Positions 8,153 through 27,651 of a stretch of 32,448 nucleotides of DNA are shown here, in pieces. The position numbers were made by a program, and so were the translations under genes. This DNA comes from an uncultured Colwellia sp. (GTDB taxonomy: Bacteria > Pseudomonadota > Gammaproteobacteria > Enterobacterales > Alteromonadaceae), in contig CAJXUT010000012.1 in assembly GCA_913061365.1 (NCBI GenBank), forward strand, positions 1 to 32,448, written 5' to 3'. The notes under the pieces are model-generated. The model was not told the DNA's origin. It searched no databases and saw only the letters and a list, made by a program, of their open reading frames with translations. The first letter of the stretch is position 1, and every line of letters starts with the position of its first letter.

Positions 8153-8303
8153 GGTATTGCCTATTGAAATGAATCCACCGTTATACTCTAGCAGACTGAA
8201 TTTAAGTATTTAATCATCCCTTAGTTGTAAGAATCTCATCTTTAAGTCATAAAATATACAATTATAACTTTTTATATTTAATAATTAGTTTTAGTGCAAT
8301 AAA

Positions 8304-9583: not shown

Positions 9584-9652
9584 AGTATTGGTAATGCTGT
9601 TGAAATAAAACATCACTTAGTCCTACGCCAATTGCCTAATGCTTAAGTAGGA
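9584..9652 (-). promoter_or_regulatory. Porin promoter with TCCTAC...GTAGGA dyad
   Basis: On the minus strand a dyad TCCTAC (9652-9647) / GTAGGA (9626-9621) lies upstream of TGTTTT (9612-9607), a 17-nt spacer and AATACT (9589-9584). This places the transcript start near 9577, about 73 nt before the ATG. The -35 is poor, as expected for an activator-dependent promoter. The TGTTTT-N17--10 layout and the sequence GATGTTTTATT are shared with the pqqA promoter. Confidence 0.55.
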
Positions 9653-9677
9653 GAAAATAAAAAAAGGATGAGATAAA

Positions 9678-10430
9678 TTACTCTGTAGTTTTTAGAATAC
9701 CTGACAGAATATCAGGGTGTTGTTGCAGAAGTTTTGTTTGCCAGGCTAGCTCATTGCAACCAGATTCTTTTCTTGGTTTAGGTAGTTCTACGTTCACTTG
9801 ATGAACAATAGAAGAAGGCGAGTCACTCATAAATATTATGCGATCAGCGAGATAAATTGCTTCACTTAAATCATGAGTAACCAAAATGACGGTACTATTA
9901 CAGCTCTTGCATAGCTCAACGAGTAGCAGTCGTAACTTAGCTGCGGTTGGCGCATCAAGAGAATTGAAGGGTTCATCAAGTAAAATTAATTCAGGATTAA
10001 CGGCAAATGCTCTGGCAATAGCAACGCGTTTTTGCATACCGCCGGATAGCTGTTTTGGATAATAGTTTTCTTTACCTTTTAAACCGACTTGCGCTAACAG
10101 GTGACTGATTTTGGTTTGCTGAATTGTAGGTAATACTAGCTGTATATTTTCTTGAACTGTTAACCAAGGCATTAACCGTGGTTGTTGAAATATATATCCT
10201 AGTTGAAGTTCTTTGCAATCTTCAATAGGTTGCGCATTACATAATATTTTTTGTGTTGTGGCCTCTTCAAGACCCGAAAGCATATTTAATAAGGTCGTCT
10301 TTCCTGAGCCAGATGGGCCTATAATGGCAACGAATTCTCCGGGTTTTACGGTAAATTTTATATCTTTTAATACCACAGAAGAGCTATTGTCGTATTGCTT
10401 GTCATTAATGGCAATATCAAGTGCGATCAT
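9678..10430 (-). CDS. NitT/TauT-type ABC transporter ATP-binding protein
   Basis: The cytoplasmic ATPase of a binding-protein-dependent importer (250 residues). Walker A GPSGSGKTT is near residue 40, followed by a Q-loop in LGYIFQQPRLMPWLTV, the signature LSGGMQKRVAIARAFA, Walker B LILLDEPFNSLD and the switch His in VILVTHDLSEA. PRLMPWLTVQENI and DLSEAIYLADRIIFMS are typical of the SsuB/TauB/NrtD group. The ATG is preceded by GGAAG and overlaps the 3' end of the permease gene by 14 nt, showing cotranslation with it. Substrate unknown. Confidence 0.92.
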   Translation of the reverse strand: MIALDIAINDKQYDNSSSVVLKDIKFTVKPGEFVAIIGPSGSGKTTLLNMLSGLEEATTQKILCNAQPIEDCKELQLGYIFQQPRLMPWLTVQENIQLVLPTIQQTKISHLLAQVGLKGKENYYPKQLSGGMQKRVAIARAFAVNPELILLDEPFNSLDAPTAAKLRLLLVELCKSCNSTVILVTHDLSEAIYLADRIIFMSDSPSSIVHQVNVELPKPRKESGCNELAWQTKLLQQHPDILSGILKTTE

Positions 10431-11169
10431 GATGACTTCCTCTAGCTATTAATTTATCTAAGGGTCTAAAGAGTAAATTTTCTATGGCCAATACAATGGA
10501 AATAAACGCAAAGGTATAGGCAAGAATACCGGCAATATCAAAAAACTGAAATAATGTGTTTAAAGCAAAACCAACACCATCACTTCGTCCTAATAATTCA
10601 ACCACTAAAACAATTTTCCAAATTAGCGATAAACCTGCACGTGCTGAGGCCATGATGTAAGGATATAACTGAGGTAAAAACACCTTAAAAAATGTTTTAG
10701 TTATTGATAACTTATAGACCTTAGCAACATCGAGTAAATCTTCATCAACTACACGAGCGCCTTCTCTAATCATCACAACAACTGTTGGCACTTTGTTAAT
10801 GACAACAGCCAATATCGCCGCTGATTCAACCAAGCCAAACCAGATATAGCAAAGTAAAATGGTAACAAGAGCAGGAACATTAAGGACTATGATTAATAAG
10901 GTGTCAGACAATTGATTTAATCGCTTACTTGTCCCCATTAAAATACCAATGATAACGCCTAATATCATGGCAATAATGAAACTAAGTAGCACACGTTTAA
11001 GGGTGACAGTAAGGTTAACAAGCATATCACCTTGAAAAAAATGATAATGAAAGCTTTCCATAACGGTTAAAAGAGAAGGAAAATCAGAGCTATTTACAAG
11101 CCACGCTACAAGTTGCCATATACTCGCTAAAATAAATAATATTATGACTCTGCCGTATATTGGTGACAT
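10417..11169 (-). CDS. NitT/TauT-type ABC transporter permease
   Basis: An inner-membrane permease of the SsuC/TauC type (250 residues). About six hydrophobic helices are visible, beginning with IILFILASIWQLVAWLV. The cytoplasmic coupling motif is represented by EDLLDVAKVYKLSITKTFFK and the following VFLPQLYPYIMASARAGLSL, which matches the EAA-loop position. The 80-nt gap to the upstream binding-protein gene and the overlap with the ATPase gene indicate one operon. Confidence 0.9.
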   Translation of the reverse strand: MSPIYGRVIILFILASIWQLVAWLVNSSDFPSLLTVMESFHYHFFQGDMLVNLTVTLKRVLLSFIIAMILGVIIGILMGTSKRLNQLSDTLLIIVLNVPALVTILLCYIWFGLVESAAILAVVINKVPTVVVMIREGARVVDEDLLDVAKVYKLSITKTFFKVFLPQLYPYIMASARAGLSLIWKIVLVVELLGRSDGVGFALNTLFQFFDIAGILAYTFAFISIVLAIENLLFRPLDKLIARGSHHDRT

Positions 11170-11249
11170 TAATGCCGCGTTTAAACAACCTAATAGCTTA
11201 TTTTGTGGTGCTTGTTTATTAGATAACGTCTTAATAATTTATTGTCCTA

Positions 11250-12290
11250 TTAAGGCGAGCATATCGCATGGCGGTTTGAAGGGTTTTTTGTAGATTTACT
11301 TTTAATAGGATGGTTATTTTGACTTTTCCAAAATGTTTTTTCAGCTAACGTGGTTGCTTTCCCAACAAGATCACGTCCTCCTTGCTTAGCTAAAATAGTA
11401 AAAACTTGCTGACTCGCATTTAGTTCTTCGGTGCTAAATTTTTTAAGTAATCTATTTCTATACTCATTTTTTAATGCGATAAAAACGTCATCGTTGTCGG
11501 CTTTTGTTAAATGACGGATACGTTGCCATTCTTCATCACATAGCAGTAATCGTTGTTTTGCTTCTTTTGAGGCTTGTAGAAAAGCCGTTAATGCTTCATT
11601 TTGCTCAGTTGCCCATTGACGATCGAAAATCCAGCCTAATAAAGGAACTTGACCAGAAATGCCGAGTTCAGACAACATCTGAGGAACACTAATTAATAGC
11701 TGATATCCATTGGCACTTAATCTTGCATTGTAATGCCAAAAATTTATCGCTGAATCAACATTGCCTTGTAACATTAAACGATTTAATAAAGGAGGTGTTG
11801 CAAAAACTAACTCTGCATTTTTTTTAATTTCTATCTGATGAATTTTTTTCGTATACGCTTGTAATAACAACCAGTTCTTGTCCACAGAGCCTCCGGCAAT
11901 ACCTATTTTAGTTTGCTTGAGATCTTGTACTGATTTGATGTCAGATTTCTCCTCGATATATAAGCCGCCTGAGGCAATAGATGTGGGAAATAAGGTATAA
12001 TTTTTACCGTTAAAGCGTTGGCGGTTTACCCACAGCCAATCACCTAAAATAATATCAACAGCGTTACTTTGTAGTGCTACTGCCGAGGCATTTTTATTAC
12101 TAAGCGGTGTTATTTGTAAGTTGAAATTATATTTTTTGTCTAATTGATAATGCTTTATTACCTCTATTTCCCAATTAACTGTGCCGTATTTTAGAACACC
12201 TACACGAACATCAGCTAAGTTTTTAGCGGGTGCAGCATTAGCGATAATACTGTTAGAACATATAATGAAAAGAAAAATAAAGATACGCAC
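11250..12290 (-). CDS. ABC transporter substrate-binding protein (NMT1/SsuA-like)
   Basis: The periplasmic solute-binding component, about 346 residues. The start chosen is GTG at 12290, with AGGTG 9 nt upstream; the GTG at 12302 would overlap that ribosome-binding site. The protein then begins with a signal peptide (VRIFIFLFIICSNSIIANA). The mature part has the family features VRVGVLKYGTVNWEIEVIKH, DIILGDWLWVNRQRF, LKQTKIGIAGGSVDKNW and DSAINFWHYNARL, typical of NitT/TauT/Thi5-type binding proteins. Family members bind sulfonates, nitrate, thiamine precursors or other small anions and heterocycles. Context (PQQ locus, TonB receptor upstream) does not settle which. A hairpin separates it from the TonB receptor gene. 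Confidence 0.87.
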   Translation of the reverse strand: MRIFIFLFIICSNSIIANAAPAKNLADVRVGVLKYGTVNWEIEVIKHYQLDKKYNFNLQITPLSNKNASAVALQSNAVDIILGDWLWVNRQRFNGKNYTLFPTSIASGGLYIEEKSDIKSVQDLKQTKIGIAGGSVDKNWLLLQAYTKKIHQIEIKKNAELVFATPPLLNRLMLQGNVDSAINFWHYNARLSANGYQLLISVPQMLSELGISGQVPLLGWIFDRQWATEQNEALTAFLQASKEAKQRLLLCDEEWQRIRHLTKADNDDVFIALKNEYRNRLLKKFSTEELNASQQVFTILAKQGGRDLVGKATTLAEKTFWKSQNNHPIKSKSTKNPSNRHAICSP

Positions 12291-12317
12291 TATAAAATAC
12301 ACCTAATAAATGATGGG

Positions 12318-12350
12318 AAAGATATTTGCTCCAGTAGAGCAAATATCTTT
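12318..12350 (-). terminator. 14-bp hairpin between TonB receptor and ABC genes
   Basis: AAAGATATTTGCTC (12318-12331) and GAGCAAATATCTTT (12337-12350) form a perfect 14-bp stem with a 5-nt loop, just after the TonB receptor stop. On the minus strand only CTTTCCC follows, so it is more likely a partial terminator or an mRNA-stability element inside an operon. On the plus strand it would end in TTTTT. Confidence 0.6.
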
Positions 12351-12356
12351 TTATTG

Positions 12357-14669
12357 CTAAAACGTATAGTTAATTCCTACAGAAAAAGATCTTGGTCTTG
12401 CAGGGCCAACGAAATACTCAGATTCTACATCAGGATAAAAATCTTCTAATACTTCATCTGCTTCGCCATAAGTACCAAATGTTTCATATTCATGATCAAA
12501 TACATTATCTATTTTGGCTGTTAATCTGAAATTATCATTTATCTGGTAAGCAAAATAAGCATTAACTAACGAATAAGATGATATCTTCTTATTTTCATTC
12601 GCTTCATCGCCACGATAGTACGAGTCAGAGGCATATAAGAACTCAGTACCAATGCTCATGTCTTGCGTTATTTGCCAATCAGCATGAAGTTTAACTTGGT
12701 GTTGAGGTTGACCAGGAATCACATCTCCCGGTGTCACTTGACGATTTGCGCCTAAAGGGTTTACTGGGCTAAAAGAAACAAAAGGAGACTCAAATGTTGC
12801 TTTTAAGTAATTGTAGCTAGTACCAATGGTTACATCGTTAAAGGCAACAGTGTAGGCTAACTCAACCCCTTGACGCTGTACTTTATCAATATTGACAAAG
12901 TAACCTTCAGAAGAGGTAGATCCGGCTTGTTGAAAAATAATGTCATCAACCGTTTTAGTTGTAAATACAGTTGCAATGGCTGATACAGAATCAGTATTGT
13001 ATAGTAATGACGCCTCAACTGTTTTGGCTACCACTTGCTCAAGCGGTGGATCAGCAACAAAGCCATTAGGTAATTTACATGGGTCGTCTTCATCAGCACA
13101 ACTTAATTCAGCAGGGCTTGGCACACGTGATGATTCGCTATAACTTAGTTTAGCGCTAAATTCATCATTAATTTTATAATCTAAACCAACGGCTGGGTTA
13201 AAACGATTAAATTTATGATTACCATCTAATGAGCCTTCACCGTCATCAATCAGATCGTTCATAATAATATGGCTGTTATTGTAACGACCAGCAATATTTA
13301 GCGTAAGACCGTATTCAAAAGCCATTGAATATGAAGCAAATACAAATTGTTGCTCTGTGGTTACATCTAAGCGTACTTGGGATTCGCTATCAAAAACCCC
13401 TGTTGGTGATACTGAACGATCATCTAGCGCTGAATCGTTATGTAGAATACCGAACTGCGTATTACTGTTAAAACTGATGTCAGCTTTATCCATGCCCAAA
13501 CCAAAAATCATTTCTTGATCATAGTTATCAAAGCTTGATAAATGAACAAGTTGCGTGGCAAAACCGTAGCTTGTATTGTCAGTAGCGCCATCATTTAATG
13601 TGCCATCAACTTCATCTGGATCAATGGTTGAGATTTCACTAAATAATGCATCTTCGTCATAACCAACAAACTCAACCCTTTCTAGTGAATCGTCTTCTTC
13701 ATCTTCTTCACATAAGGTTACGCCTGCACCAAAATCACATTCTTCATAATCGCTATCATCACCATTTAAAGAATTAATTTTATTTTGACGGTAATAAGCA
13801 TTTGCTTGTAACGATAAGTTACTATTAATTATCGAGTCGCTCGCAATACTAACGAGTTTATAGTCAGTGTTTGTTCTATCAGGGTGAGTATAAACCGCTT
13901 CTCTACCTTCAATTGCTATTAGCTCTTCTGGCGCTGCGCCATTACCAGTCATCTCATTATCATTAGCAGCAAGTAATAATTCTACAAAGTGAGTATCATC
14001 TTGATAACTAAGCGAAGCTAGCGCTTGTTTTAATTCACTTTGAGAGAAGTCACGCCAGCCATCTTCTTTATAGCTGTTAGCAAGAAAGTAATAGCCCCAA
14101 TTCCCCTTGTTACCGCCAGACTGAATAGTGTATTGTTTTTGTCCAAAGCTACCAAAATTCACATCAATTTCGTTTTTAGTATAATTAAAACCATTTTTTG
14201 TTTTCAGGGATAAAGCACCACCTAAGGTGTTTTGACCAAAAGCTGGGTTAGAGCCTGAATACAAAGCAACGCTATCAAGTGCAGCTAAAGGAATCAGATC
14301 CCAGTTAACAGTATCACCAAAAGGTTCGTTAAATCGAACGCCATTTAAATAAACAGAAATACCTTGAGGTAAACCTAGTAATGGTGACGCAGTAAACCCA
14401 CGATATTGCACATCAGGTTGAAAAGGGTTGTTTTGAACATCATTGATATGCACACTGACTAGTTGATTTCTCATATGATCAGCAAGTGATATTGCTTGTG
14501 CTCGAGTGATATCCTCAACGCTAACATACTGCGCACTACCAATAATATTTTCATCTGTAGAAAAGTTACTTGATAACGGTGTTTGACCAATAACACTGAT
14601 TTTTTCAATGTCATCAGCTAATGCTGGTAAGGCGCATAGCGTACTTAATAATAAAGTAATACGGTTCAT
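12357..14669 (-). CDS. TonB-dependent outer-membrane receptor
   Basis: A 770-residue ligand-gated importer. The signal peptide is MNRITLLLSTLCALPALA, followed at once by a TonB-box-like EKISVIG. The plug domain follows (ISLADHMRNQLVSVHINDVQ, VQYRGFTASPLLGLPQGISV, SGSNPAFGQNTLGGALSLKT), then a 22-strand-type barrel ending in FSVGINYTF. An unusually acidic region at about 304-360 contains CEEDEEDDSLE and a Cys pair (311, 320). A second Cys pair sits in SCADEDDPC. AAGGA lies before the ATG. It is transcribed with or just before the ABC transporter genes, pointing to a shared import route. The ligand is unknown; a metal or metal complex is suggested only by the acidic loop and the quinoprotein context. 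Confidence 0.9.
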   Translation of the reverse strand: MNRITLLLSTLCALPALADDIEKISVIGQTPLSSNFSTDENIIGSAQYVSVEDITRAQAISLADHMRNQLVSVHINDVQNNPFQPDVQYRGFTASPLLGLPQGISVYLNGVRFNEPFGDTVNWDLIPLAALDSVALYSGSNPAFGQNTLGGALSLKTKNGFNYTKNEIDVNFGSFGQKQYTIQSGGNKGNWGYYFLANSYKEDGWRDFSQSELKQALASLSYQDDTHFVELLLAANDNEMTGNGAAPEELIAIEGREAVYTHPDRTNTDYKLVSIASDSIINSNLSLQANAYYRQNKINSLNGDDSDYEECDFGAGVTLCEEDEEDDSLERVEFVGYDEDALFSEISTIDPDEVDGTLNDGATDNTSYGFATQLVHLSSFDNYDQEMIFGLGMDKADISFNSNTQFGILHNDSALDDRSVSPTGVFDSESQVRLDVTTEQQFVFASYSMAFEYGLTLNIAGRYNNSHIIMNDLIDDGEGSLDGNHKFNRFNPAVGLDYKINDEFSAKLSYSESSRVPSPAELSCADEDDPCKLPNGFVADPPLEQVVAKTVEASLLYNTDSVSAIATVFTTKTVDDIIFQQAGSTSSEGYFVNIDKVQRQGVELAYTVAFNDVTIGTSYNYLKATFESPFVSFSPVNPLGANRQVTPGDVIPGQPQHQVKLHADWQITQDMSIGTEFLYASDSYYRGDEANENKKISSYSLVNAYFAYQINDNFRLTAKIDNVFDHEYETFGTYGEADEVLEDFYPDVESEYFVGPARPRSFSVGINYTF

Positions 14670-14780
14670 TATTATTCCTTAGTTGTAAACTTAGTCATAA
14701 TGTAACGCGAATAATTGAGTAATGGTATATGAAGAAAAATTCACCAAGTGAATAGGGTTAAATTAAAATCTTTTGAAAAC

Positions 14781-14839
14781 ATACTGTTAGTGTTACTTTG
14801 TTGCAAACACCTCCTACTAAGGTAGGAGGTGTTTGCAAC
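14781..14839 (-). promoter_or_regulatory. Perfect 18-bp dyad and promoter candidate of the TonB receptor gene
   Basis: GTTGCAAACACCTCCTAC (14800-14817) and its exact inverse (14822-14839) are separated by TAAG. The inner arms are TCCTAC/GTAGGA, the element also found before pqqA and the porin. On the minus strand TGTTTG (14809-14804), 17 nt, then CAGTAT (14786-14781) gives a weak promoter in the same layout. The dyad lies 40 nt after the kinase stop but has no T-run on either side, so an operator explains it better than a terminator, though both could apply. Confidence 0.5.
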
Positions 14840-14878
14840 TAATTTTATTAGCAAAAACTAGCATTTATTTGCTAAAAC

Positions 14879-17428
14879 CTATCTTAACAAATGTAACATA
14901 GTGGTTTTTAGTTTCATTGGTTTAACAGGTTTGTTTAGCAGTAAAATACCGGTGTTTTCAACTTCATTTTTTAGTGATTTACTGTAGTTTGCCGTAATCA
15001 TTAAAGTTGGTATGGCTAGATCTCTTTTGGTATTGATAAGGTTAGCCGCTGTTAGACCTGTTTCGTCATTATCTAAATGGTAATCGACAATTAAAATATC
15101 AGCGTGATCTTGAGAGACATCAACTTGCTGTTCTAAATCTTCAAGGCTAAGCGCAGTTATTACAATACAGTCCCAACCACCAAGTAAGCGAGCCATACCG
15201 TCACATATGTTGGCATCATTATCGATAACCCAAATAGTGCGCTGGGCTAGAATAGTGTTTTGTAATATTTGTGAGGGCAGGGAGTTTTGTGTAGATACTT
15301 TGTCAATTGTTCCTACGGGTACTTGAATGGCAAACATAGAGCCTTTGCCTTGAATGGAGTTCACTTTTATTGAATGGTCGAGTACTTTGGCTATTTTATC
15401 TACAATAGCTAAGCCTAGACCTAAACCATTTCTAAAAGATATTTTAGATGACTGAAGTCGTTTAAACTCTTGAAAAATTTCATTGATTTTTTCTTCAGCT
15501 ATACCAACACCATTATCCCAAACTTCAATAGAAACAAAGTTTCCATGCCTTCTACAACCAAATAAAACTTTGCCATTGTCGGTATATCTAAAGGCGTTAG
15601 AAAGAAAATTACGTAATACGCGCGCTAATAAAACGCTATCGCTATGTACGACTATATCGGTTGTCACGTAGTGTAATTTGACATCATATTGGCTTGCTTG
15701 TTGTTGATATTCATTTGCCAAGTTATCCAGTAAATCAGCCAGTTTAAAAGAGGATTTATCAGCTCGAACAACACCCGCATCAAGCTTAGAAATATCAACT
15801 AAGGTACAAATTAAGTTTTCTAGATCACTAAGAGAAGCGTCTACAGAATTAACAATAGGCGCTAGTGCAGTATCTTGAACTTGCTCTGATAATGAGCTAT
15901 TAAATAGCTGGGCAGCATTTAGGGGCTGTAATAAATCATGGCTAACTGCAGCAAGAAACTTTGTTTTAGACATATTTGCCTGATCAGCTTCTTTAATTGC
16001 TTTCACTAAATCATTTTGTGCCTGTTGATGTCCTTGTATTTCTGTTTGTAGTTGAGAAGTACGTTCATGTACTCTAATTTCTAATAAATCATGCGCTTTT
16101 TGTAAGGCTAATGCATTTTTTCTTCGTTCAGTAATGTCTCTAATGAGTACAAAAAATCCAAGGACTTGACCTTCAGCATCAATATTAGGAACATAAGATT
16201 TTAATAGGTAGGATATTTCACCCGTTAAACTTTGCTCTTCTGTCTCAAAACTAACACTCTCACCAGAAAGTGCTTTATCTACGTATGGCTTTAGTTTATT
16301 AAAATCAATATTAGTTTTTGCTTTGAGATCTTCTAAACCATAAATTTTAGATTCAGAATGACCATACCAATCCATGTAAACTTGGTTAGTAAATTGAAAC
16401 TTTAGATCAGAGCCGACATAGGCAATCATTGCGGGTACATTATCGGTAATTAAACGTAACCAGCGTTCACTTTTTTTCAGTGACTCTGCGTAACGATGTC
16501 GTTCAGTAATATCGGTATAGGTTTTTATTAACTTACCATTTTGTAAATGATGATCTCTTATTTCGACCACAGTACCATTGGATAAGGTTTGAACGTAGTA
16601 AGCGTGCTCTTTTTTGGGTGCAAGGTCTAGCTCAGTTAAGTTACTGATATTAGAAAAGTAGGGCTTTTCTTTTAATAATATAGGCGAGAGCTGACTAATC
16701 TGGGCAAAACGATTATTCCACACTTCTATTTGTTGTTGACTACTAATTAACACCACACCTTGAGAAATATTATCAACTAAGCTTTGTAGTAAGAATGACT
16801 TTTTAGCCATACCTTGTTCATATCTAACATTCTCAGCATTTTTCAATGCGGTGATGTCGCTATAAAGCATTACCCAACCGCCTTCCATAGTGCGACGTTC
16901 ATTTAATTGAAACCATCGTCCATTTGATAGTTTATAAATAGGCTTAATATTATAGGCATCGCCAGGATGAACGTGACGAATAATACCTAGATTCTTTGCT
17001 CTGTCTTTTAAATCATTTAAGTTCACACCAACGTCAGTAGGTAAACCTAAGCCTTCCCAAAAGGAAGAAAAAGTACTGTTTTGAAGAATGATTCTGCCAT
17101 CACTATCCAGTAAAACAAAAGCCTCTGAGATACTTTCAATTGCATCAATAAAACGTTGCTGAAATAGGTTAGCTTTGTCATTTGCTTGTGTTAACGCGCG
17201 ATTGCTACGCTCTAATTTGGCAAGGGTATTTTTTAATTCTTGTGTTTTTTCTCTTACTTGTTCAGCTAAATATACTGAGCTTTCAAATGCATCATAGGGC
17301 GCAAAATGATTACCATGATTTTCTACTCGCTCCATTAAAGCGTGGTTAATTTTTTTTAAAACAGTATTTTGCTTTTTGAGTTGCTCAACTTGCTCTGCTA
17401 ATGAACTCTCTTCATTTATATCATTCAT
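14879..17428 (-). CDS. PAS-domain hybrid histidine kinase, NahK/ErcS'-like
   Basis: A soluble sensor kinase of 849 residues. ATG 17428 is chosen because GAGG lies 9 nt upstream; it overlaps the FIST gene stop by 8 nt. Numbered from there, it has an N-terminal coiled coil (about 5-90), three PAS-like domains (about 95-200, 220-310, 325-435), a second coiled coil, and a dimerisation/phosphoacceptor helix with His497 in KFLAAVSHDLLQPLNAAQLF. The ATPase domain has the N-box NFLSNAFRYTDNGK, then VWDNGVGI and GLGLGLAI. The C-terminal receiver has Asp781 in IVDYHLD. The HDLLQPLNAA sequence and this layout match Pseudomonas NahK (also called ErcS'), which acts with the FIST protein NosP and in ethanol oxidation. 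A separate Hpt protein would be needed for relay and is not in the window. Confidence 0.92.
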   Translation of the reverse strand: MNDINEESSLAEQVEQLKKQNTVLKKINHALMERVENHGNHFAPYDAFESSVYLAEQVREKTQELKNTLAKLERSNRALTQANDKANLFQQRFIDAIESISEAFVLLDSDGRIILQNSTFSSFWEGLGLPTDVGVNLNDLKDRAKNLGIIRHVHPGDAYNIKPIYKLSNGRWFQLNERRTMEGGWVMLYSDITALKNAENVRYEQGMAKKSFLLQSLVDNISQGVVLISSQQQIEVWNNRFAQISQLSPILLKEKPYFSNISNLTELDLAPKKEHAYYVQTLSNGTVVEIRDHHLQNGKLIKTYTDITERHRYAESLKKSERWLRLITDNVPAMIAYVGSDLKFQFTNQVYMDWYGHSESKIYGLEDLKAKTNIDFNKLKPYVDKALSGESVSFETEEQSLTGEISYLLKSYVPNIDAEGQVLGFFVLIRDITERRKNALALQKAHDLLEIRVHERTSQLQTEIQGHQQAQNDLVKAIKEADQANMSKTKFLAAVSHDLLQPLNAAQLFNSSLSEQVQDTALAPIVNSVDASLSDLENLICTLVDISKLDAGVVRADKSSFKLADLLDNLANEYQQQASQYDVKLHYVTTDIVVHSDSVLLARVLRNFLSNAFRYTDNGKVLFGCRRHGNFVSIEVWDNGVGIAEEKINEIFQEFKRLQSSKISFRNGLGLGLAIVDKIAKVLDHSIKVNSIQGKGSMFAIQVPVGTIDKVSTQNSLPSQILQNTILAQRTIWVIDNDANICDGMARLLGGWDCIVITALSLEDLEQQVDVSQDHADILIVDYHLDNDETGLTAANLINTKRDLAIPTLMITANYSKSLKNEVENTGILLLNKPVKPMKLKTTMLHLLR

Positions 17429-18578
17429 CGGCATCAACCTCATTATCAGCAATAAACACACCTGCAAAAGTCTGGTTCAAATTAATACCATTAATATGTT
17501 CACCGTAGCTATTAAAGCCTGCCATATTGTATTTTTGATATAAAGCTTTTGCTTGCTCACCTAAGTTTTTTTGTTCAATTTCAATACGACGTAGAAAACA
17601 ACAACAGCCAAGCACAAGGTTTGACTGTCCATAGCGCTCAGTAATATCTTCTAATTTATTATTTAATGAGTTAAAAATGTCATCCATTTCAACTGCAGTT
17701 AATACAATACCTACATCAACGGCACAATAAAAAGTTAAACTTAAATCGTCCATATTCACTTTTTGTATTGAGCGAATATAGTATTGACCACCCACCTTAA
17801 CAGCAAGGGGGTGTAGTGAAAATATTTCAGGGCTTAAGTCGTTGATGTCTATATTTAATAATTGAGCATACTCTATTGCTGCAGGCATTGCGTTGAGTTC
17901 ATAAACGGTTCTATTTTCAACATCTGCTGCGGTGACCACTAATTTCTCTATCGGGCATTTTATATGGTTGCAATTGAATACCTCAAAAGCACATTGGGTG
18001 TTAATCAAAATGACGATAGCAGCCTGTTGGTGGAATTTATTTTGATAGAAAACATGGGTATTAGCTAAATTGACATCATCGCCAGCTGAGCCTCCAAAAT
18101 GTGGAATACCGTAAGTAGCAGAGTTTAGTGTTTGTAAAAATTGCTCTTCTTTTGTAGATAGACCATCAAGTAATGTGAGTAAAAAACTATTGCCTTGTAT
18201 TGGGGCTAATTCTCTTGAGCGGCACTGTTCAATCAGCTCATTCATAGTATTTTGAGCATCAACAATATCAAAATTATCCATTGACTCTACTGGCTTAGCG
18301 CTAATAGAAAAGTACTTACTCGAAAAGCCTATTGCTATAATGGACTGTCGTTCACAGCCTTCACGGGTAAATTCACCCGCCGTAGTACAGCCAACAACCT
18401 CAACGCCTTTAAAAGATTGGGTCATTGCTGTTGCTAATTCGTCTAACTGATAAACGGTTGAACAATAAAACAGAACAAAATCAATATCAGGGTGGTTCAA
18501 TTGTTCTTTTATTTCTTTACTGGCTTTTGAAGGCTCAATTGATTTACTAACAGCGACTATTGTTTTTATATTTGTCAT
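17421..18578 (-). CDS. FIST-domain sensory protein, NosP-like
   Basis: A 385-residue protein with FIST_N and FIST_C domains, a ligand-sensing fold partnered with kinases. ATG 18578 (MTNIKTIVAVSKSIEPSKAS) is preferred over a TTG at 18623; a weak AGGCAGAG precedes it. Diagnostic segments are VLFYCSTVYQLDELATAM, FKGVEVVGCTTAGEFTREGC, GIPHFGGSAGDDVNLANTHV and, in the second half, LVLGCCCFLRRIEIEQ with MAGFNSYGEHINGINLNQTF. In Pseudomonas the FIST protein encoded beside NahK is NosP, a heme-containing nitric oxide sensor that controls that kinase. The same pairing and a translational overlap are seen here. Whether this protein binds heme cannot be read directly; candidate His residues lie in IPHFGG, NTHVFY and NHIKCP. 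Confidence 0.87.
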   Translation of the reverse strand: MTNIKTIVAVSKSIEPSKASKEIKEQLNHPDIDFVLFYCSTVYQLDELATAMTQSFKGVEVVGCTTAGEFTREGCERQSIIAIGFSSKYFSISAKPVESMDNFDIVDAQNTMNELIEQCRSRELAPIQGNSFLLTLLDGLSTKEEQFLQTLNSATYGIPHFGGSAGDDVNLANTHVFYQNKFHQQAAIVILINTQCAFEVFNCNHIKCPIEKLVVTAADVENRTVYELNAMPAAIEYAQLLNIDINDLSPEIFSLHPLAVKVGGQYYIRSIQKVNMDDLSLTFYCAVDVGIVLTAVEMDDIFNSLNNKLEDITERYGQSNLVLGCCCFLRRIEIEQKNLGEQAKALYQKYNMAGFNSYGEHINGINLNQTFAGVFIADNEVDADE

Positions 18579-18659
18579 AACTCTGCCTAATAGGGATATC
18601 ATTTTGAATGTTAATGCTAACAAATGCCTTATATCAACATCAGTTTATTTTAGCTGATG

Positions 18660-18707
18660 TAGACTAAGGTCTAGTGATATCTCGCTGCTCTACTTTAATA
18701 GGTAGGA
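18660..18707 (-). promoter_or_regulatory. Putative operator region upstream of the FIST/kinase operon
   Basis: On the minus strand TCCTAC (18707-18702) is followed by CTATTAAAGTAG, giving an imperfect dyad of the same CCTAC/GTAG type seen before pqqA, the porin and the TonB receptor. A second small dyad TAGAC-CTTA-GTCTA follows at 18673-18660. It shares CCTTAGT with the 14800-14839 palindrome. No confident -35/-10 pair is assigned. Confidence 0.35.
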
Positions 18708-18730
18708 CTCAGCTAACATTAGCAATACAT

Positions 18731-20869: not shown

Positions 20870-20898
20870 ATATTAGACTCCAAAACATTTAATTTAAG

Positions 20899-20925
20899 CC
20901 CTTCAGGGAATGGGAAGGGCTATTT
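20899..20925 (-). terminator. Hairpin between aldehyde dehydrogenase and NosR-like genes
   Basis: AGCCCTTC and GAAGGGCT form an 8-bp G/C-containing stem in the 67-nt gap. On the minus strand it is followed by TAAATTAAAT rather than a T-run. A partial terminator that lowers expression of the downstream gene is the best reading. Confidence 0.45.
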
Positions 20926-20936
20926 ATACTTACTAT

Positions 20937-22457
20937 CTAGAAGAAACCTAATGGGCTAGTGCTATAGCTCACTAATAAGTTTTTAGTCTGTTGGTAATGA
21001 TCCATCATCATTTTATGTGTTTCACGACCAATACCTGACTTCTTATAACCACCAAATGCAGCATGTGCAGGATATAAATGGTAACAGTTAGTCCATACAC
21101 GACCTGATTCAATACCACGACCCATACGGTGAGCAAGGTTTGCATCACGTGTCCAAACACCAGCACCTAAACCAAAAGCAGTATCGTTAGCTATTTGCAG
21201 TGCTTCTTCAGCATCTTTAAAGGTAGTAACAGAGATTACCGGACCAAATATTTCTTCTTGGAATACTCGCATTGAGTTATTGCCTTTTAGAATAGTTGGT
21301 TGGATGTAATAACCTGTTTCTAATGAACCTTCTAATGATTCATGGCTACCACCAGAAAGTACAACAGCACCTTCATCTTTACCTATTTGTAAGTAACCTT
21401 GGATTTTTTCGTATTGTTCTTTAGAAGCTTGTGCACCAACCATAGTTGTTACATCAAGTGGATTACCTCGAACGATGTTCTTAGTTTTCTCAAGTACTTT
21501 TTCCATGAATGCATCAAAGATATCTTCTTGTACAAGAGCACGAGAAGGACAGGTACATACTTCACCTTGGTTAAAGAAACCTAAAGCAAAACCTTCAGCA
21601 CACTTTTCAATGTAATCATCTTCTTGATTCATGATGTCACTAAAGAAAACATTTGGTGATTTACCGCCAAGTTCAACTGTAGAGGGGATAAGGTTTTCAG
21701 CAGCACATTTTAATATGTGTTGACCTACAGGTGTTGAACCAGTAAATGCAATTTTACCTATACGTGTGCTTGTTGCTAATGCTTCACCGGCTTCTTTACC
21801 GTAGCCGTTAACAATGTTTAAAACGCCAGCAGGAAGTAAATCAGCAATTAATTCCATAAAGACTAGAATACTTGCAGGTGTTTGTTCTGCAGGTTTAAGA
21901 ACAATACAGTTACCTGTAGCAAGTGCAGGAGCTAATTTCCAAGCTGCCATCAGCATTGGGAAGTTCCAAGGAATGATTTGGCCAACAACACCAATAGGCT
22001 CATGGAAGTGATACGCAACAGTATCATCATCTATTTGAGATAAAGAACCTTCTTGAGCACGGATACAACCAGCATAGTAACGGAAATGATCGACACAAAG
22101 TGGAATATCAGCATTAAGTGTTTCACGGATAGGCTTACCATTATCCCATGTTTCAGCAACGGCTAATACTTCAAGGTTAGCTTCGATGCGGTCGGCAATT
22201 TGTAATAAAATATTTGAACGTTCTTGTACTGAGGTTTTTCCCCAAGCTGCTTTTGCTGCATGTGCAGCATCAAGTGCTAAATCAATATCTTCGGCACTTG
22301 AACGTGGAATTTCACAAAATACTTCACCAGTAACTGGTGTTGAATTACCAAAGTAATTTCCTTTTACCGGAGCAACCCATTGACCGCCAATAAAATTTTG
22401 ATATTTTGATTTAAATGTAATAACTGAATTTTCGCTTCCCGGATTTGCATAGATCAT
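20937..22457 (-). CDS. NAD(P)-dependent aldehyde dehydrogenase, ExaC/AldB type
   Basis: Oxidises an aldehyde to its acid in the cytoplasm. At 506 residues it has the ExaC/AldB/AcoD length. Key features are [20 protein letters not shown] and VLKPAEQTP (cofactor binding), FTGSTPVGQ, the catalytic Glu in [12 protein letters not shown], the catalytic Cys in GEVCTCPSR (near residue 300; the second Cys is normal for this subgroup), [10 protein letters not shown] and the C-terminal [13 protein letters not shown]. In Pseudomonas aeruginosa exaC lies between the quinoprotein ethanol dehydrogenase genes and pqqA-E. Here the gene follows pqq and the peptidase by 147 nt, consistent with removal of acetaldehyde-like products. 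AGGTGA lies just before the ATG. The real substrate is inferred. Confidence 0.92.
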
Positions 22458-22536
22458 AATTCACCTCATATATTTACCCGCCAGAATTTGATCCTTTTTG
22501 GTGGGCTTATTTTTTTATTGCGTCATTAATTAAACA

Positions 22537-22587
22537 GTGTTTGTCTATGGATATAATAGGGGCTTATTGGCAAGTAAAACCATGCTC
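22537..22587 (-). promoter_or_regulatory. Weak promoter candidate of the aldehyde dehydrogenase gene
   Basis: On the minus strand GGTTTT, 17 nt (ACTTGCCAATAAGCCCC), then TATTAT lies about 90-115 nt before the ATG. The -35 is poor, as in the pqqA and porin promoters, but no GTAGGA element accompanies it. The assignment is tentative. Confidence 0.3.
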
Positions 22588-22604
22588 CCTTGGCATAAAA
22601 AAAC

Positions 22605-24071
22605 TCATACTTTAGGATGGGAACCGCTGGCGATCGTTTTTAAGTAGTTAGATATATCAGTGTCTGTAATATTTTCTAGCTGATTATCAGCTAGAAAATG
22701 CGTGTGGGAATATTTGTTTTTAGCCAGCGGTAAGCTGTTACGAATAAAGCGATAATCTTGGCTTAAAGAGAGTAAGCATTGAGGTGTTTCTTGTAAGTGT
22801 TTAGTTGGGTTTATATCAAAAGCACTGAAAATCACAAGGTGTGTTGAGTCATTTGAGTCGTCTATGGTTAAAGCTTGGGTAGCATAGCAATGTCCTTGGC
22901 AGCGTCGAGCCAAAAATGCAGGGTAGCCACTAATGATATAACTTGTGATATTTGCTAAGGCTTTATCAGCATTATTAATTTTAGTTAACCACACGGCATT
23001 AGATTGGTCATGTACAGCGCTAAAACAAAGTAAACCTTTTGCCTCACTTGTAATAAGCTCACTTTTGGCTTGCTGATATAAATTGGTAAATAAACCAGGC
23101 AGCGGTGCTTTCTTTACAAGGTTTTTTATCTTGTTATTAACCAGCTTATTTACAGTAGCCCGTGCAGTGAATAGGTTTGATAAGTTCACTAATGGGGGGA
23201 TTAAATTGTTAATCTCTGTAGACTCTTCAATTTCTTGGTGGTCATCTATTTCTTGGTGGTCATCTATTTCTTGGTAGTCATCTATTTCTTGGTAATAAGG
23301 ATCTTGTAACCATAGCTGGTAAGTTTCAATAAGCTTTTTAATTGATGAAGAATATTTTTTTTGATGTTGCTCTTTATCTTCAAAGGCTTGAGAGGATGTA
23401 TTTGCATCATTCAGCAGTATTCTTTCTTGCTTATATTGTGCACTTTGTTGAGGAATAAATGATATCAAGTTTGCAATTCTTTCAACATCAGCATTTGCAG
23501 TAACCAGAGTTATATTATTTGCTTGATAATATTGCTTATGGAAGTTTGTTAAGTCACTGAGTGTTAATGTTCCTATCGTTGCACTCATGCCTCCATAGCA
23601 AAAGTCGTTCTGTTTATTACCTTCTTTATGGCTTTTTTCATTCTTCGTATTTGCCTGTTCTATTCCTAGTAGCTCTCGAAAAATAACCCCGCTGTCATTA
23701 CCATTATGTACTTCATTACGTAAATCTTCGCCATCAAAGGTAGGCTTAAATAAGCCGTTAAGTAAATAATTTATTGCTAGTAAAAAGGTTTCAGGGCAAT
23801 GACTTTGACAATGAAAGTAAGTGGTGTTGGCAAATGTTGAAGCATTAATTTTTGCTTCAGTTAGTGATGTTATTTGAAATAACGTTTCTACTTCAGGAAA
23901 AGCTTCGCTGCGTCGAAAAACCATGTGTTCAACCGCATGAGCAACACCGCTATTGTCAAATACAGGTGTATTCACTACAAAAAGAGCGCTAAAGCCATCA
24001 CTATCGATTATGTTTATATGTTTCAAACCATTTTTATGGCGATAAATATTTTCAATCAATAGTGAAGCCAA
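22605..24071 (-). CDS. Short M16-family metallopeptidase, PqqF candidate
   Basis: A 488-residue zinc peptidase-like protein. The inverted zinc motif HAVEH (His45, Glu48, His49) is in GVAHAVEHMVFRRSEAFPE, with the third ligand probably Glu133 in GVIFRELLG. LTLSDLTNFHKQYYQANNIT also matches the N-terminal catalytic domain, in the style of the M16C/PreP group. A charged repeat linker at about 260-283 leads to a C-terminal domain with ARRCQGHCYAT, the counterpart of the M16 R/Y motif. It starts at TTG, 2 nt after the pqqE stop; no ATG exists before the active site. Classical PqqF is about 760 residues or more, so this is a reduced form. Position directly after pqqE suggests it trims modified PqqA. 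Confidence 0.78.
   Translation of the reverse strand: MASLLIENIYRHKNGLKHINIIDSDGFSALFVVNTPVFDNSGVAHAVEHMVFRRSEAFPEVETLFQITSLTEAKINASTFANTTYFHCQSHCPETFLLAINYLLNGLFKPTFDGEDLRNEVHNGNDSGVIFRELLGIEQANTKNEKSHKEGNKQNDFCYGGMSATIGTLTLSDLTNFHKQYYQANNITLVTANADVERIANLISFIPQQSAQYKQERILLNDANTSSQAFEDKEQHQKKYSSSIKKLIETYQLWLQDPYYQEIDDYQEIDDHQEIDDHQEIEESTEINNLIPPLVNLSNLFTARATVNKLVNNKIKNLVKKAPLPGLFTNLYQQAKSELITSEAKGLLCFSAVHDQSNAVWLTKINNADKALANITSYIISGYPAFLARRCQGHCYATQALTIDDSNDSTHLVIFSAFDINPTKHLQETPQCLLSLSQDYRFIRNSLPLAKNKYSHTHFLADNQLENITDTDISNYLKTIASGSHPKV
23231..23294. repeat. 18-bp in-frame tandem repeat in the M16 peptidase gene
   Basis: The unit TTTCTTGGTGGTCATCTA (plus strand) occurs three times at 23231-23284 with one base change, and a fourth partial copy follows. 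It encodes repeated (H/Y)QEIDD on the minus strand, forming an acidic linker between the two peptidase domains. Copy number could vary between strains. Confidence 0.85.
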
Positions 24072-24073
24072 GG

Positions 24074-25252
24074 TTATATTTTAATTCGGGTGATGTTTAA
24101 CTCAGTGTCTTTAGCATGCTTCATTGCTTTTTGGTTAACACGAGGCACTATAGGTTTTGACGGATTATTTGCACTATCAATTGCCTGTTGAATTAAATGA
24201 TGGTCTTCTGATTTACTACACACGGGATCTGTTTTATGCATATCACCTGTCATCATAAATGCCTGACAACGACAACCACCAAAATCTTTTTCCTTTTCAT
24301 CACAACCTTTACAGGGTTGTGGCATCCAGTCATCACCACGAAAGTATTCAAAAGAAAAGTCTTGCTGCCAAATGTCATTAATCGACTTATCTTTCACATT
24401 AGGGAAGGTTAGTGGTAACATTTTTGCACTATGACAAGGTAAAGCTGAGCCATCAGGTGTAATGGTTAAGAAGGTTGTTCCCCAACCATTCATACAAGCT
24501 TTTGGACGCGTTTCAAAGTAGTCAGGTGTAACAAAAATAAAATGTGGGCCTTTACCATCTTGTTCATCCCTAAACTTATTAACAATAGCCTCAGCTTCAA
24601 CTAATTGTTCTCTTGAGGGAAGTAAATGGTCACGATTTTGATAAGCCCATCCGTAATATTGTGCAGTTGCTAGCTCAACGTAATCAGCTTCAAGCTCACA
24701 ACTAAGTCGCATAATATCTTCAATTTGTTCAAGGTTTTGTTTTGAAAGCACAAAGTTAAGCACCATAGGGTAGCCTTGTGCTTTGACAGATTTCGCCATA
24801 TTAAACTTTTGTTGGTAAGCATTACCACGACCTGCTATGGCATCGTTTAGCTCTGGATCAGCACCTTGAAAACTGATTTGAATATGGTCTAAACCTGCTT
24901 CTTTTAGCTTGGTAATACGCTTTTCTGTTAAGCCTATGCCTGAGGTAATTAAGTTGGTATAAAAGCCTAATCCTCTGGCATGTTTTACTAATTCTTCAAG
25001 ATCTTTACGCAGTAAAGGCTCACCACCAGAGAAACCAAGTTGTACAGCCCCCATGTCTCTAGCTTCGCTAAATACTTTAAACCACTGCTCTGTGGTTAAT
25101 TCATTTTTTGTGTCGCTTAAGTCTGTAGGGTTTGAACAGTAAGGGCAGTGTAACGGACAATCATAAGTTAATTCTGCAAGCAGCCATAGTGGTGGGCCAA
25201 CAAGTGCATCACTGTCTTGTGCTGATATATCTGTTACCGTTTGATTAGTCAT
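24074..25252 (-). CDS. pqqE: PqqA peptide cyclase PqqE (radical SAM)
   Basis: Links the Glu and Tyr side chains of PqqA by a carbon-carbon bond, the first step of PQQ synthesis, using PqqD as peptide chaperone. ATG 25252 is chosen ([12 protein letters not shown]): it gives the usual family N-terminus, and an ATG 14 codons upstream has no ribosome-binding site. It contains [20 protein letters not shown] with the radical SAM CX3CX2C motif (Cys32, 36, 39), the SAM-binding [17 protein letters not shown], and C-terminal SPASM cysteines in [30 protein letters not shown] and [16 protein letters not shown]. It overlaps pqqD by 8 nt. Identification is firm. Confidence 0.97.
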
Positions 25253-25529
25253 GATTAAGCCATTTTTTTTCAATTGCAGTGGTGACAAATTCATTTACAT
25301 CGTCAGATAAGTCGCCAGCATCAGGAAACTTAGCATGTAGCGCCGCTGTAATTTGTTGTATGTTTGTTTGCCCGTCAATAAGCTGCATAATTTCGCCAGC
25401 ACCACCGTTAAGTTTTACCATACCCTCTGGAAATAATAATACAAAGCAGTTTTGTGCTTTTTCCCATTGAAAGCGAAACATGGCATTAAGTGATGGTGTC
25501 ATTTCAGGTGTTACTATTGGTGTATTCAC
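25245..25529 (-). CDS. pqqD: PqqA-binding protein PqqD
   Basis: A 94-residue winged-helix peptide-recognition protein that presents PqqA to PqqE. Typical features are [40 protein letters not shown] and the C-terminal [14 protein letters not shown]. The start codon is GTG at 25529, overlapping the pqqC stop as GTGA, so translation is coupled on both sides (pqqC before, pqqE after). Confidence 0.96.
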
Positions 25530-26293
25530 TTAAATAGTCCTTTGTGATAAATAGGATTGTTAACCGCCTCTTGACCAAGTATAGCTTGGTAAGGCGCTCT
25601 ATCTTGTTGATAAGCTAATGTCATTGAGTCTAACATGCTCCACAAAATATCCAGTTTAAATTGGAGAATATTTAACGCTTCTTCTTGTGCTTCTCGGCTA
25701 GTGAAGTGATCGAGTGTTATTTGCAATCCATGATTTACATCACGACGAGCTTGCGATAAACGCATTTGGAAATAACTTAATCCTTCTGGCTTTATCCATT
25801 GATAGTTTTGCGGCCAGCTGTCTAAACGGCTTTGATGAATTTCAGGCGCAAACATTTCAGTTAAAGATGAGCAAGCTGCTTGTTGCCAGTTAGCTTTTCT
25901 AGCAAAATTTACATAGGCATCTACGGCAAAACGAACACCGGGCAGTACAAACTTTTCATCTAGTAAATCTTGTCTATCTAAACCAACAGCTTCACCTAAA
26001 CGTAACCATGCTTCTATGCCACCTAAGGTTTCTTCACCTGCATTACCGTCGTGATCAAGAATACGTTGGATCCATAAGCGTCTAGTTTCCATATCGCGAC
26101 AATTAGCCATAATTGCGGCATCTTTAATTGGAATATTCACTTGATAATAAAAGCGGTTTGCAACCCAGCCTCTGATTTCTTCTTTGCTACATTCACCTTT
26201 ATGCATAGCAATATGGAAAGGGTGATGAATATGGTAAAGTTGGCCTTTGTCTCTTAACTTTTGTTCAAATTGTTCTCTGGTCCAAGCTTGCAT
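25526..26293 (-). CDS. pqqC: Pyrroloquinoline-quinone synthase PqqC
   Basis: The cofactorless oxidase that performs the final ring closure and eight-electron oxidation to PQQ. It is 255 residues, the standard length, in the all-helical TENA/THI-4-like fold. Recognisable segments are [87 protein letters not shown] and [17 protein letters not shown] lies 8 nt before the ATG, and the gene follows pqqB by 22 nt. Confidence 0.97.
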
Positions 26294-26315
26294 AAAATGG
26301 ATCCTATAAGTGAGG

Positions 26316-27233
26316 TTAAATCGTTATTTCCATGCCATCGGTGGCAATTTCTACACCATTGTCTAAAACAAACTGATGCTCGGAAGATTCTTCATTTAAA
26401 ATGGGGTTAGTGTTGTTTATATGGATTAGAATTTTGCGGTCTATGTTAAATTTATTTAATAGTGCCACAGTGCCATAGTCGCCATTAACTGGCATATGCC
26501 CCATTTCAGAGCCTAATTTAGTACCAACACCTTGAGCAATCATCTCATCATCAAGCCACAATGTTCCGTCAATGAGTACACAGCTAGCTTCTGCTAATAT
26601 ACTTTCAACTTCTGGCGTGCTTTCAACGATACCCGGTAAATAAAATAAGTACTTACCTGTGCTTTTATCGATAATTTTTAAACCGATATTATTGCCATCG
26701 ACTACTTTATCGCGATAGCGTGAATAAGGAGGAGCATTTGATTCAATAATAACAGGAACAAATTCAATGCCATCAACACCATTGACGCTAAACGGAGGGC
26801 GTTTTTCGGTATCAATTTGAGTAAAATTAAGACCGCCATGCCAATGCTTTAACATAGGAAATAATGGATAGGCGCTTGTTAAGTCTTCATAAACAACATC
26901 ACTACAATATACGTCAAGTGGTAGCCCTTCACGCAAAGTTATCAGCCCAGTAGTATGATCGATTTGGCTATCAGATAATATTGCTGCACGAATATTAGTA
27001 CCACGACTACCTTCTTCTGGCCAAAGCTGTGGGGATTGATTTATTTGTTGACGAATATCAGGGGAAGCATTAATTAATACCCAGTCTTTACCATTTGGGC
27101 TAACAGCAATAGATGATTGAGTACGCGCTGTTGCTTTAATTGTACCGTCACGCAAGCCTTTACAATTAGCACAGTGACAATTCCATTGAGGAAACCCACC
27201 ACCTGCAGCCGAGCCTAGAACTAAAATTTTCAT
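26316..27233 (-). CDS. pqqB: PQQ biosynthesis protein PqqB
   Basis: A metallo-beta-lactamase-fold protein (305 residues) of the PQQ operon, proposed from published work to hydroxylate the Tyr-derived part of the PqqA product. The N-terminus [19 protein letters not shown], followed by [11 protein letters not shown], is diagnostic; the two cysteines belong to a zinc site. Metal-site segments [24 protein letters not shown] and LIHINNTNP follow in family order. GAGG precedes the ATG. It follows pqqA across a 169-nt gap holding a hairpin. Confidence 0.96.
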
Positions 27234-27326
27234 ATGTGCCTCGAGATCAAGACAAAAGGGAAGTCAGTAATTAACGGGTGATAATTAAGACCATTTAAAA
27301 GAACACTTTATAAGTGTGATTGGTAT

Positions 27327-27367
27327 AATTACCTCAGTATTTAAGTTGAACTTTCACTGAGGTAATT
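27327..27367 (-). terminator. Intercistronic hairpin between pqqA and pqqB
   Basis: AATTACCTCAGT (27327-27338) and ACTGAGGTAATT (27356-27367) form a perfect 12-bp stem with a 17-nt loop. On the minus strand no T-run follows directly. A smaller hairpin ACACTT-ATA-AAGTGT followed by TCTTTT lies just downstream (near 27303-27317). Together they could terminate or stabilise most transcripts after pqqA, giving an excess of the precursor peptide. Confidence 0.6.
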
Positions 27368-27402
27368 TAATCTGAGTTTTGCTTTTTAGTGATGATATTG
27401 AA

Positions 27403-27474
27403 TTAACGGTTACTGATGTATAGTGTTACTTCAAATCCTAAACGCATTTCTTCAAAATTAGGCTTAATCCACAT
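27403..27474 (-). CDS. pqqA: PQQ precursor peptide PqqA
   Basis: The ribosomally made 23-residue substrate from which PQQ is cut. The whole product reads MWIKPNFEEMRLGFEVTLYI followed by SNR. It shows the MW-x-KP-x-F start and the crosslinked pair Glu15 and Tyr19 in the expected E-x3-Y spacing. AGGA lies 7 nt before the ATG (GAGGAATGAACT). The pqqB gene follows, then pqqC, pqqD and pqqE, all on this strand. It is too short for ordinary gene finders. Confidence 0.96.
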   Translation of the reverse strand: MWIKPNFEEMRLGFEVTLYISNR

Positions 27475-27540
27475 AGTTCATTCCTCGCTAGTTATTAATA
27501 TTGGTTTTCGGCATTCATTACTTTTCCTGAGTACCCTTTA

Positions 27541-27583
27541 ACTATATTTAATTTTAATTTAATAAAACATCCTACTTTAGATG
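27541..27583 (-). promoter_or_regulatory. pqqA promoter with GTAGGA element
   Basis: On the minus strand CATCTAAAGTAGGATG (27583-27568) contains GTAGGA (27575-27570). It abuts TGTTTT (27569-27564), a 17-nt A/T-rich spacer and TATAGT (27546-27541), placing the start near 27534 with a leader of about 60 nt. The weak -35 with an element directly upstream fits activation by a NarL-type regulator. The same layout precedes the porin gene. Confidence 0.6.
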
Positions 27584-27651
27584 GAAAAGAATAGGGCGCA
27601 GGCATGAAATAACGACTTAACTCAATTTCTGTTTGTTTAGGTTGTGGTAAA

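Follow-up and report, generated by a model that had tools for sequence, protein, structure and literature searches.

A conserved palindrome as the predicted operator of genes for pyrroloquinoline quinone synthesis, alcohol oxidation and uptake in an uncultured Colwellia sp.

Genes for the synthesis of pyrroloquinoline quinone (PQQ), for alcohol oxidation and for uptake lie on one strand of a 32,448 nt stretch of DNA from an uncultured Colwellia sp. (contig 12 of a 3.79 Mb draft genome, GenBank accession numbers GCA_913061365.1 and CAJXUT010000012.1), and the question raised by this locus is whether they share a control element and which protein reads it. The whole stretch is referred to as the window and the genome as G000. 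An initial annotation of the window had proposed a PQQ-locus regulon marked by GTAGGA followed by a TGTTTT-N17-(−10) promoter, with the NarL-type response regulator encoded at 7496–8152 as the candidate activator. Comparison with relatives showed that the conserved unit is a 16 bp imperfect palindrome, TCMTWCTAARGTAKGA, of which GTAGGA is one half-site. The palindrome is found before pqqA, exaC, a TonB receptor gene and, more weakly, a porin gene, and outside the window before the cytochrome c550 gene and exaA. Its sequence and distribution make it very probable that a single response regulator, related to AgmR/ErbR of Pseudomonas, docks there, and likely that these genes are switched on together.

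Conservation of the palindrome

The sites and promoter elements in the window are as follows.

27570..27585, minus strand: predicted pqqA operator TCCATCTAAAGTAGGA, which includes GTAGGA; 1 mismatch to the consensus, and at most 2 mismatches in 13 of the 14 pqq loci scanned
27541..27569, minus strand: TGTTTT-N17-TATAGT, core promoter of pqqA; the −10, which begins 23 nt beyond the operator, is kept in 13/13 alignable relatives, and TGTTTT in 5/13
22605..22620, minus strand: distal site of the predicted exaC operator, CCATCCTAAAGTATGA, overlapping the M16 peptidase open reading frame (ORF) at its end; at most 2 mismatches in 12/12 genomes
22583..22598, minus strand: TTATGCCAAGGGAGCA, the proximal exaC site; it lies 22 bp after the distal one, and the second-site score peaks at +22 in 12 promoters
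22553..22558, minus strand: exaC −10, TATTAT; measured from the distal site, the best gap to the −10 is 46 nt across 12 promoters
14812..14827, minus strand: predicted TonB-receptor operator TCCTACCTTAGTAGGA; 0 mismatches when read on the plus strand, and the sole 0-mismatch site in the genome
14800..14839, minus strand: long inverted repeat around the TonB operator; 18 bp perfect stem and 4 nt loop (−32.6 kcal/mol, z −10.3)
9637..9652, minus strand: porin site 1, TCCTACTTAAGCATTA; 3 mismatches to the consensus, clear in 11/12 porin promoters
9611..9626, minus strand: porin site 2, GTAGGACTAAGTGATG, which holds the box of the initial annotation; the second-site score peaks at +27 in 11 promoters
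8214..8229, minus strand: TACAACTAAGGGATGA, a possible weak site upstream of the regulator gene; 3 mismatches, identical in G019, with other sites in G051 and G015

Of 61 genomes, 15 had a match to pqqB, that of G039 being weak (24% identity). When the regions upstream of pqqA were aligned, a CTAAAGTAKGAT-like block, namely CTAAAGTA or a close form of it ending in GTAGGA or GTATGA, was present at 13 of the 15 loci. The two exceptions were L043 (G053), which is without the block, and L045 (G031:C87), which ends at a contig edge; G053 had no regulator match and no good site near pqqB, and it was left out of the consensus scan by a 60% identity filter. The −10 of the 13 loci reads TATAGT or TATATT, and the position of TGTTTT is occupied by TGTTTA in three and by neither string in five. 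The upstream regions of exaC in 12 genomes all contained CTAA(A/G)GTATGA, variants of TCMTACYTTAGYAKGA were found before the TonB receptor gene in 9 of the 10 relatives aligned, TCCYMCTWAAG plus a second block preceded the porin gene in 11 of 12, and the exaA upstream regions had TCMTMCTAARTGATGA in common. All five promoter blocks fit TCMTWCTAARGTAKGA.

The promoter pattern of the initial annotation fared unevenly in these alignments. The minus-strand GTAGGA strings before pqqA (27570–27575), the TonB receptor gene (14812–14817) and the porin gene (9621–9626) are all present, as are the three quoted 17 nt spacers, but what is kept before the same genes in relatives is the palindrome and not the combination of GTAGGA with TGTTTT-N17. 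A −35/−10 pair with a 17 nt spacer is plausible at pqqA only, and of that pair the −10 alone is conserved. The −10 given for the porin gene was not upheld (TGTTTT is found in 4 of the 12 aligned genomes and GTAGGA in the window alone), TGTTTG and the weak −10 after the TonB site are not kept in the aligned relatives, and the dyad reported before the FIST gene (nosP) is missing from the 4 near relatives aligned, NosP upstream regions also scoring low. The varying distance between GTAGGA and the −35 box, which had been seen as a weakness, arose from comparing half-sites of different copies, the porin box being part of a second, weaker copy. The exaC site at 22605–22620 and the upstream porin site at 9637–9652 had been overlooked.

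Simpler motifs were rejected. The window contains GTAGGA 11 times, with 8.24 expected, which is no enrichment, and the string is, like GTAGGA-N0-10-TGTTT, common elsewhere. CTAAAGTAKGAT alone gave 86 window matches at 3 mismatches against 81 expected, and the five exact genome matches of YTAAAGTAKGAT are that of pqqA and four inside ORFs.

Specificity of the palindrome

At up to 1 mismatch, G000 contains 4 sites: three precede pqqA, the TonB receptor gene and the cytochrome c550 gene that lies upstream of exaA, and the fourth is inside a coding region. The same scan of 41 genomes found 52 sites in the 11 genomes with an orthologue of the window regulator and 37 in the 30 without one (Mann–Whitney p 2.9e-6; reversed control p 0.80). 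Of the 52 sites, 35 fall in pqq/exa loci, where 0.74 would be expected by length, and in G003 and G009 all 4 sites lie within the locus. Extension of the G000 regulon with 2-mismatch sites was abandoned, as 14 of the 25 inspected were inside ORFs and, by eye, none of the intergenic ones except that of exaC preceded an obvious PQQ gene.

The sites of a first scoring matrix (pqqA plus exaC) had been chosen with a consensus written after the TonB, porin and exaA alignments, and scoring was repeated with a matrix of pqqA sites alone (13 rows, 7 distinct 16-mers), the pqqA block having been identified first. With this held-out matrix, 46 of 63 promoters of relatives scored at least 10 (exaC 11/12, TonB 11/14, c550 7/12, exaA 8/13, porin 9/12), compared with 17 of 306 other ORFs. 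The regulator gene reached this score in 3 of 12 cases, and the genes for NosP (0/11), NosR (0/12) and NahK (0/11) in none of 34. At a threshold of 12, exaC (11/12) and TonB (11/14) were unchanged and c550 fell to 6/12. Of the 15 other ORFs that scored at least 12 with the pqqA-plus-exaC matrix, 4 are unexplained. Four are ABC permease genes with the site inside the preceding gene, 4 encode second TonB receptors and 3 are divergently oriented neighbours of TonB genes.

An operator-like sequence, TCAACCTAAAGTATTA, is found inside a coding sequence just 5′ of an ABC permease gene in G027:C31 (65278) and G019:C35 (4577), and similarly in G012 and G018. This may be conservation of the coding sequence.

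Association with an AgmR/ErbR-like regulator

7496..8152, minus strand: NarL/FixJ-type response regulator, AgmR/ErbR-like; PF00072 and PF00196, tree placement, D55 invariant in 15 orthologues

The regulator consists of a receiver and a LuxR-type helix-turn-helix domain, matching the AgmR/ErbR type. Its best-scoring NCBIfam model is that of CrbR/ErdR (NF041830), with a score of 164.5 bits, under the cut-off of 390. Orthologues (at least 72%) were found in 11 of the 41 genomes and in G026, G027, G031 and G032, the other four motif-bearing pqq genomes. An exaA-family match over the cut-off was found in 10 genomes, all of which have the regulator (p 1e-8); the 11th regulator genome is G009, where the exaA match is in two pieces.

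A scan of genome contigs for relatives of the regulator kept 80 loci, the best 34 of which encode proteins 47–61% identical to it. In a midpoint-rooted tree, these 34 distant and the 15 close orthologues formed one clade (support 0.69), with the 46 other loci and 11 paralogues outside it. The close set grouped with Vibrio and Enterovibrio (0.996), and the Pseudomonas members of the clade are assigned to AgmR by gene neighbourhood and not by experiment. The porin, nosP and nahK genes lie beside the regulator in the window, and 15 of the 34 distant loci likewise have matches to each of them.

Like sites were found in these other genera. The Vibrio and Enterovibrio loci have sites scoring 15.8–21.1 before pqqA, exaC and nosP, and three Pseudomonas loci have a site before pqqA (scores 17.6, 14.2 and 12.2); the sixth distant pqqA scored 7.4. 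A G+C-rich variant, TACTACCAAGGGAGTA and similar sequences, precedes c550, pedA1 and, in some, exaA in Pseudomonas and Marinobacter. The pattern TACTACYWWRGTAGTA (TACTAC) at up to 2 mismatches gave 33 sites in 22 of the 34 AgmR/ErbR-like loci and none in the 46 loci of other regulators. A related site was found upstream of the NosP gene in 7 of 25 distant cases, all in Pseudomonadaceae, with a TACACT, TAAACT or TAGAAT box 22–23 nt further on (counted by eye).

Promoter geometry and proposed mechanism

At pqqA the best mean offset placed the start of the −10 box 23 nt after the site in both the close (14) and the distant (5) promoters. In the exaC (12) and distant c550 (19) promoters the score for a second site peaked at +22 and the −10 gap was 46 and 45, respectively, so that the −10 is 23–24 nt after the nearer site. 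This placement agrees with that reported for the CrbR motif, at −52 to −36 (PMC5715377). At pqqA and the TonB receptor gene the best extra offset was −22, with low mean scores (−6.0 and −4.6), hinting at a weak partner site. The porin sites are 27 bp apart. The matrix found no second site at exaA, where the −10 gap was 43 or 46 in the close set and 17 in the distant set. The second site was weak at distant pedA1 and absent from the distant regulator promoters.

This arrangement suggests a mechanism of the following kind. The NahK/ErcS-family hybrid kinase encoded in the same locus would probably phosphorylate the regulator. A dimer of the regulator would then bind the palindrome, immediately 5′ of a poor −35, and contact RNA polymerase (class II activation). 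At pqqA it would occupy a single strong site, which ends 23 nt before the −10, and at exaC two sites 22 bp or two helical turns apart, the nearer about 24 nt before the −10. The predicted regulon, with provisional operon limits, would comprise pqqABCDE, exaC with nosR-nosP-nahK behind it, the cytochrome c550 gene and exaA elsewhere in the genome, the TonB receptor gene, the porin gene and perhaps the regulator gene itself.

Strength of the prediction

We consider it likely, on the comparative data, that TCMTWCTAARGTAKGA is the operator of the regulator encoded at 7496–8152 and that the pqq, exa and uptake genes are co-regulated through it. A PQQ-locus regulon with a shared activator element and the candidacy of this regulator, both put forward in the initial annotation, are well supported by the same evidence, namely the footprints, the held-out matrix, the co-occurrence of regulator and sites, and the like sites beside AgmR/ErbR-like regulators in other genera.

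Several points weigh against this interpretation. That the sites are active is predicted from sequence, and the core of the CrbR operator is similar. At 3 mismatches the consensus matched the G000 genome 339 times and its reversed control 348 times, and the window contained 7 matches against 3.8 expected, a number reached by 10 of 100 shuffles; counts so near the control leave weak matches without value as evidence. Of the 52 sites at up to 1 mismatch, 17 fall outside the loci. Hits were the reason for including a few of the stretches treated as loci, and related genomes are not independent trials. At the threshold of 12 the pqqA matrix detected only 5/13 exaA, 3/12 porin and 1/12 regulator promoters, with 15/306 others. 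The 22/23 nt spacing is not followed by the TonB and porin promoters and only partly by exaA, and the AgmR-like clade has a support of 0.69 with a midpoint root. The TACTAC pattern was chosen after the distant loci had been viewed, and many of these loci are of one genus. Counted across whole genomes, it occurs 57 times in 17 genomes of the AgmR type and 45 times in 17 controls; the reversed pattern, which is commoner than the pattern itself in each of the 34 genomes, is no neutral control. Within 20 kb loci lie 23 of the 57 sites and none of those of the controls, and the pattern came from those loci.

Alternative explanations

The palindrome could be real and yet be read by a CrbR/ErdR-like paralogue (G000:C33) or another NarL-family protein, which we regard as unlikely. 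The paralogue, 35–39% identical, is widespread, and the ACTU motif through which CrbR/ErdR acts in acetate use has a similar core (e.g. TACGACTAAAGTCTAAA) and is likewise an imperfect inverted repeat, directly before the promoter, at −52 to −36 of acs (PMC5715377). However, the 37 sites in the 30 genomes without the window orthologue, 20 of which have the paralogue at E 1e-40, compare with 40 for the reversed control. In Table 4 of the same source, 22 of 23 ACTU strings, before acs, actP and other genes, have GTC, whereas the window-type sites mostly have GTA and precede PQQ and alcohol genes. The 19 acs promoters of relatives scored no higher than 9.0 with the matrix. A CrbR-like reading of these acs promoters was tried and set aside, with a strict ACTU-like string in 2 of 19, and G000 had no acs match above the family cut-off.

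The TonB element raises a separate possibility, that it is mainly an RNA hairpin which ends or protects the nahK transcript and that its likeness to the operator is a coincidence. The GTAGGA here is part of the perfect 18 bp hairpin between nahK and the receptor gene, and in relatives with differing arms pairing is full in G018 and mostly retained in G019. Against this, the 16 bp core stays in 4 more distant genomes where the outer arms pair poorly, no T-run follows the hairpin on the minus strand, and the element is the only perfect operator match in the genome. We think this very improbable as the main function of the element; the hairpin may also work as RNA, and the two uses could coexist.

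That the literal GTAGGA string, at varying distance from TGTTTT-N17-(−10), is itself the element is hardly credible, as these strings and their 17 nt spacers do exist but GTAGGA-N0-10-TGTTT occurs at 29 places in the genome (reversed control 15), its parts are unconserved at the porin gene and after the TonB site, and exaC has GTATGA.

Comparison with known systems

VraR of Staphylococcus aureus is a regulator of the LuxR/NarL type. Its DNA-binding part was assayed on an oligonucleotide holding ACTAAAGTATGA, according to PMC11323011; the organism and regulon are different and the core string alone is in common with the window.

A closer likeness is to AgmR/ErbR (PedR1; PA1978, PP_2665) of Pseudomonas, a LuxR-type regulator which is encoded beside porin, NosP and NahK genes and activates genes for PQQ synthesis and alcohol oxidation (PMC12997753). 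The window shares this gene neighbourhood and resembles the ped/exa cluster. It differs in that pqq, exaC, the nosR-like gene, nosP, nahK and the TonB receptor, ABC importer, porin and regulator genes are in one stretch, with exaA and c550 apart, and its sites are more A+T-rich than the G+C-rich Pseudomonas forms. The NosP–NahK nitric-oxide signalling pair is represented by both genes, and a signal path from it to the regulator is putative; for P. putida, the link from kinases to AgmR is itself described as not settled. The AgmR/ErbR regulon is thus already known, and the predicted operator is the new part. No AgmR/ErbR operator was found in the literature searched, which included the available parts of PMC12997753, PMC9023270 and PMC4686015 and covered in part the papers matching three site strings.

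More generally, AgmR/ErbR-family regulators across the Gammaproteobacteria may recognize a single conserved operator (TAC/TCC..CYAARGTA..) with fixed spacing, the −10 following the near site by about 23 nt and paired sites being 22 bp apart. An outer base pair, in GTA versus GTC, would keep these regulators apart from their sister CrbR, and the marine regulon would have gained a dedicated TonB receptor and ABC importer serving PQQ-dependent alcohol oxidation. We offer this extension tentatively, as a possibility that falls somewhat short of an even case. A defined operator with fixed spacing would make the regulon predictable from sequence and would link uptake genes without an assigned substrate to PQQ-dependent alcohol use. 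It would also make directly testable how each of two sister regulators recognizes its own sites.

Genes of the locus and related loci

On the minus strand, from 27474 to 7496, the window encodes pqqA, B, C, D and E, an M16 peptidase, exaC, a NosR-like protein, nosP, the hybrid kinase, the TonB receptor, an ABC importer, the porin and the regulator. The pqq gene names are our reading of the encoded proteins.

27403..27474, minus strand: pqqA, 23 amino acids, first gene of pqqABCDE; ORF and peptide kept in relatives
20937..22457, minus strand: ExaC acetaldehyde dehydrogenase; NF050026, 957.7 bits (cut-off 900)
17421..18623, minus strand: NosP (FIST) protein; NF041558, 550.7 bits (cut-off 450)
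14879..17467, minus strand: NahK/ErcS-family hybrid histidine kinase, candidate partner of the regulator; NF041832, 525.8 bits (cut-off 400)
12357..14669, minus strand: TonB-dependent receptor; PF00593 and PF07715
8350..9504, minus strand: porin; PF13609

The window kinase is the one G000 protein that passes the NF041832 cut-off, and it reaches 950.7 bits against the 1500-bit cut-off of the NahK model NF041831.

In G009:C1 (905860–907531 and 913987–918677) exaA is in two pieces, the TonB match is short and a second receptor is split into several ORFs; no pqqB was found in this genome, though the regulator and sites persist, and the locus is either decaying or affected by assembly errors. In G003:C131 (L173, L238) exaA, the regulator and operator sites are present with no pqqB match, and this organism may depend on PQQ from outside, or the genome may be incomplete.

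Within G000, a second TonB receptor, 55% identical to that of the window, is encoded near a second quinoprotein dehydrogenase (G000:C40, 1812–8816; L164). This locus was considered as a member of the regulon and rejected, the operator-like sites there being only weak. At G000:C136 (7369–10622; L163) one strong operator at 8782 is common to both strands, with the genes for cytochrome c550, a substrate-binding protein and exaA on one strand and a pair encoding a PQQ-type ABC substrate-binding protein and a beta-propeller protein on the other; c550, exaA and the divergent PQQ-type substrate-binding gene all score above their NCBIfam cut-offs.

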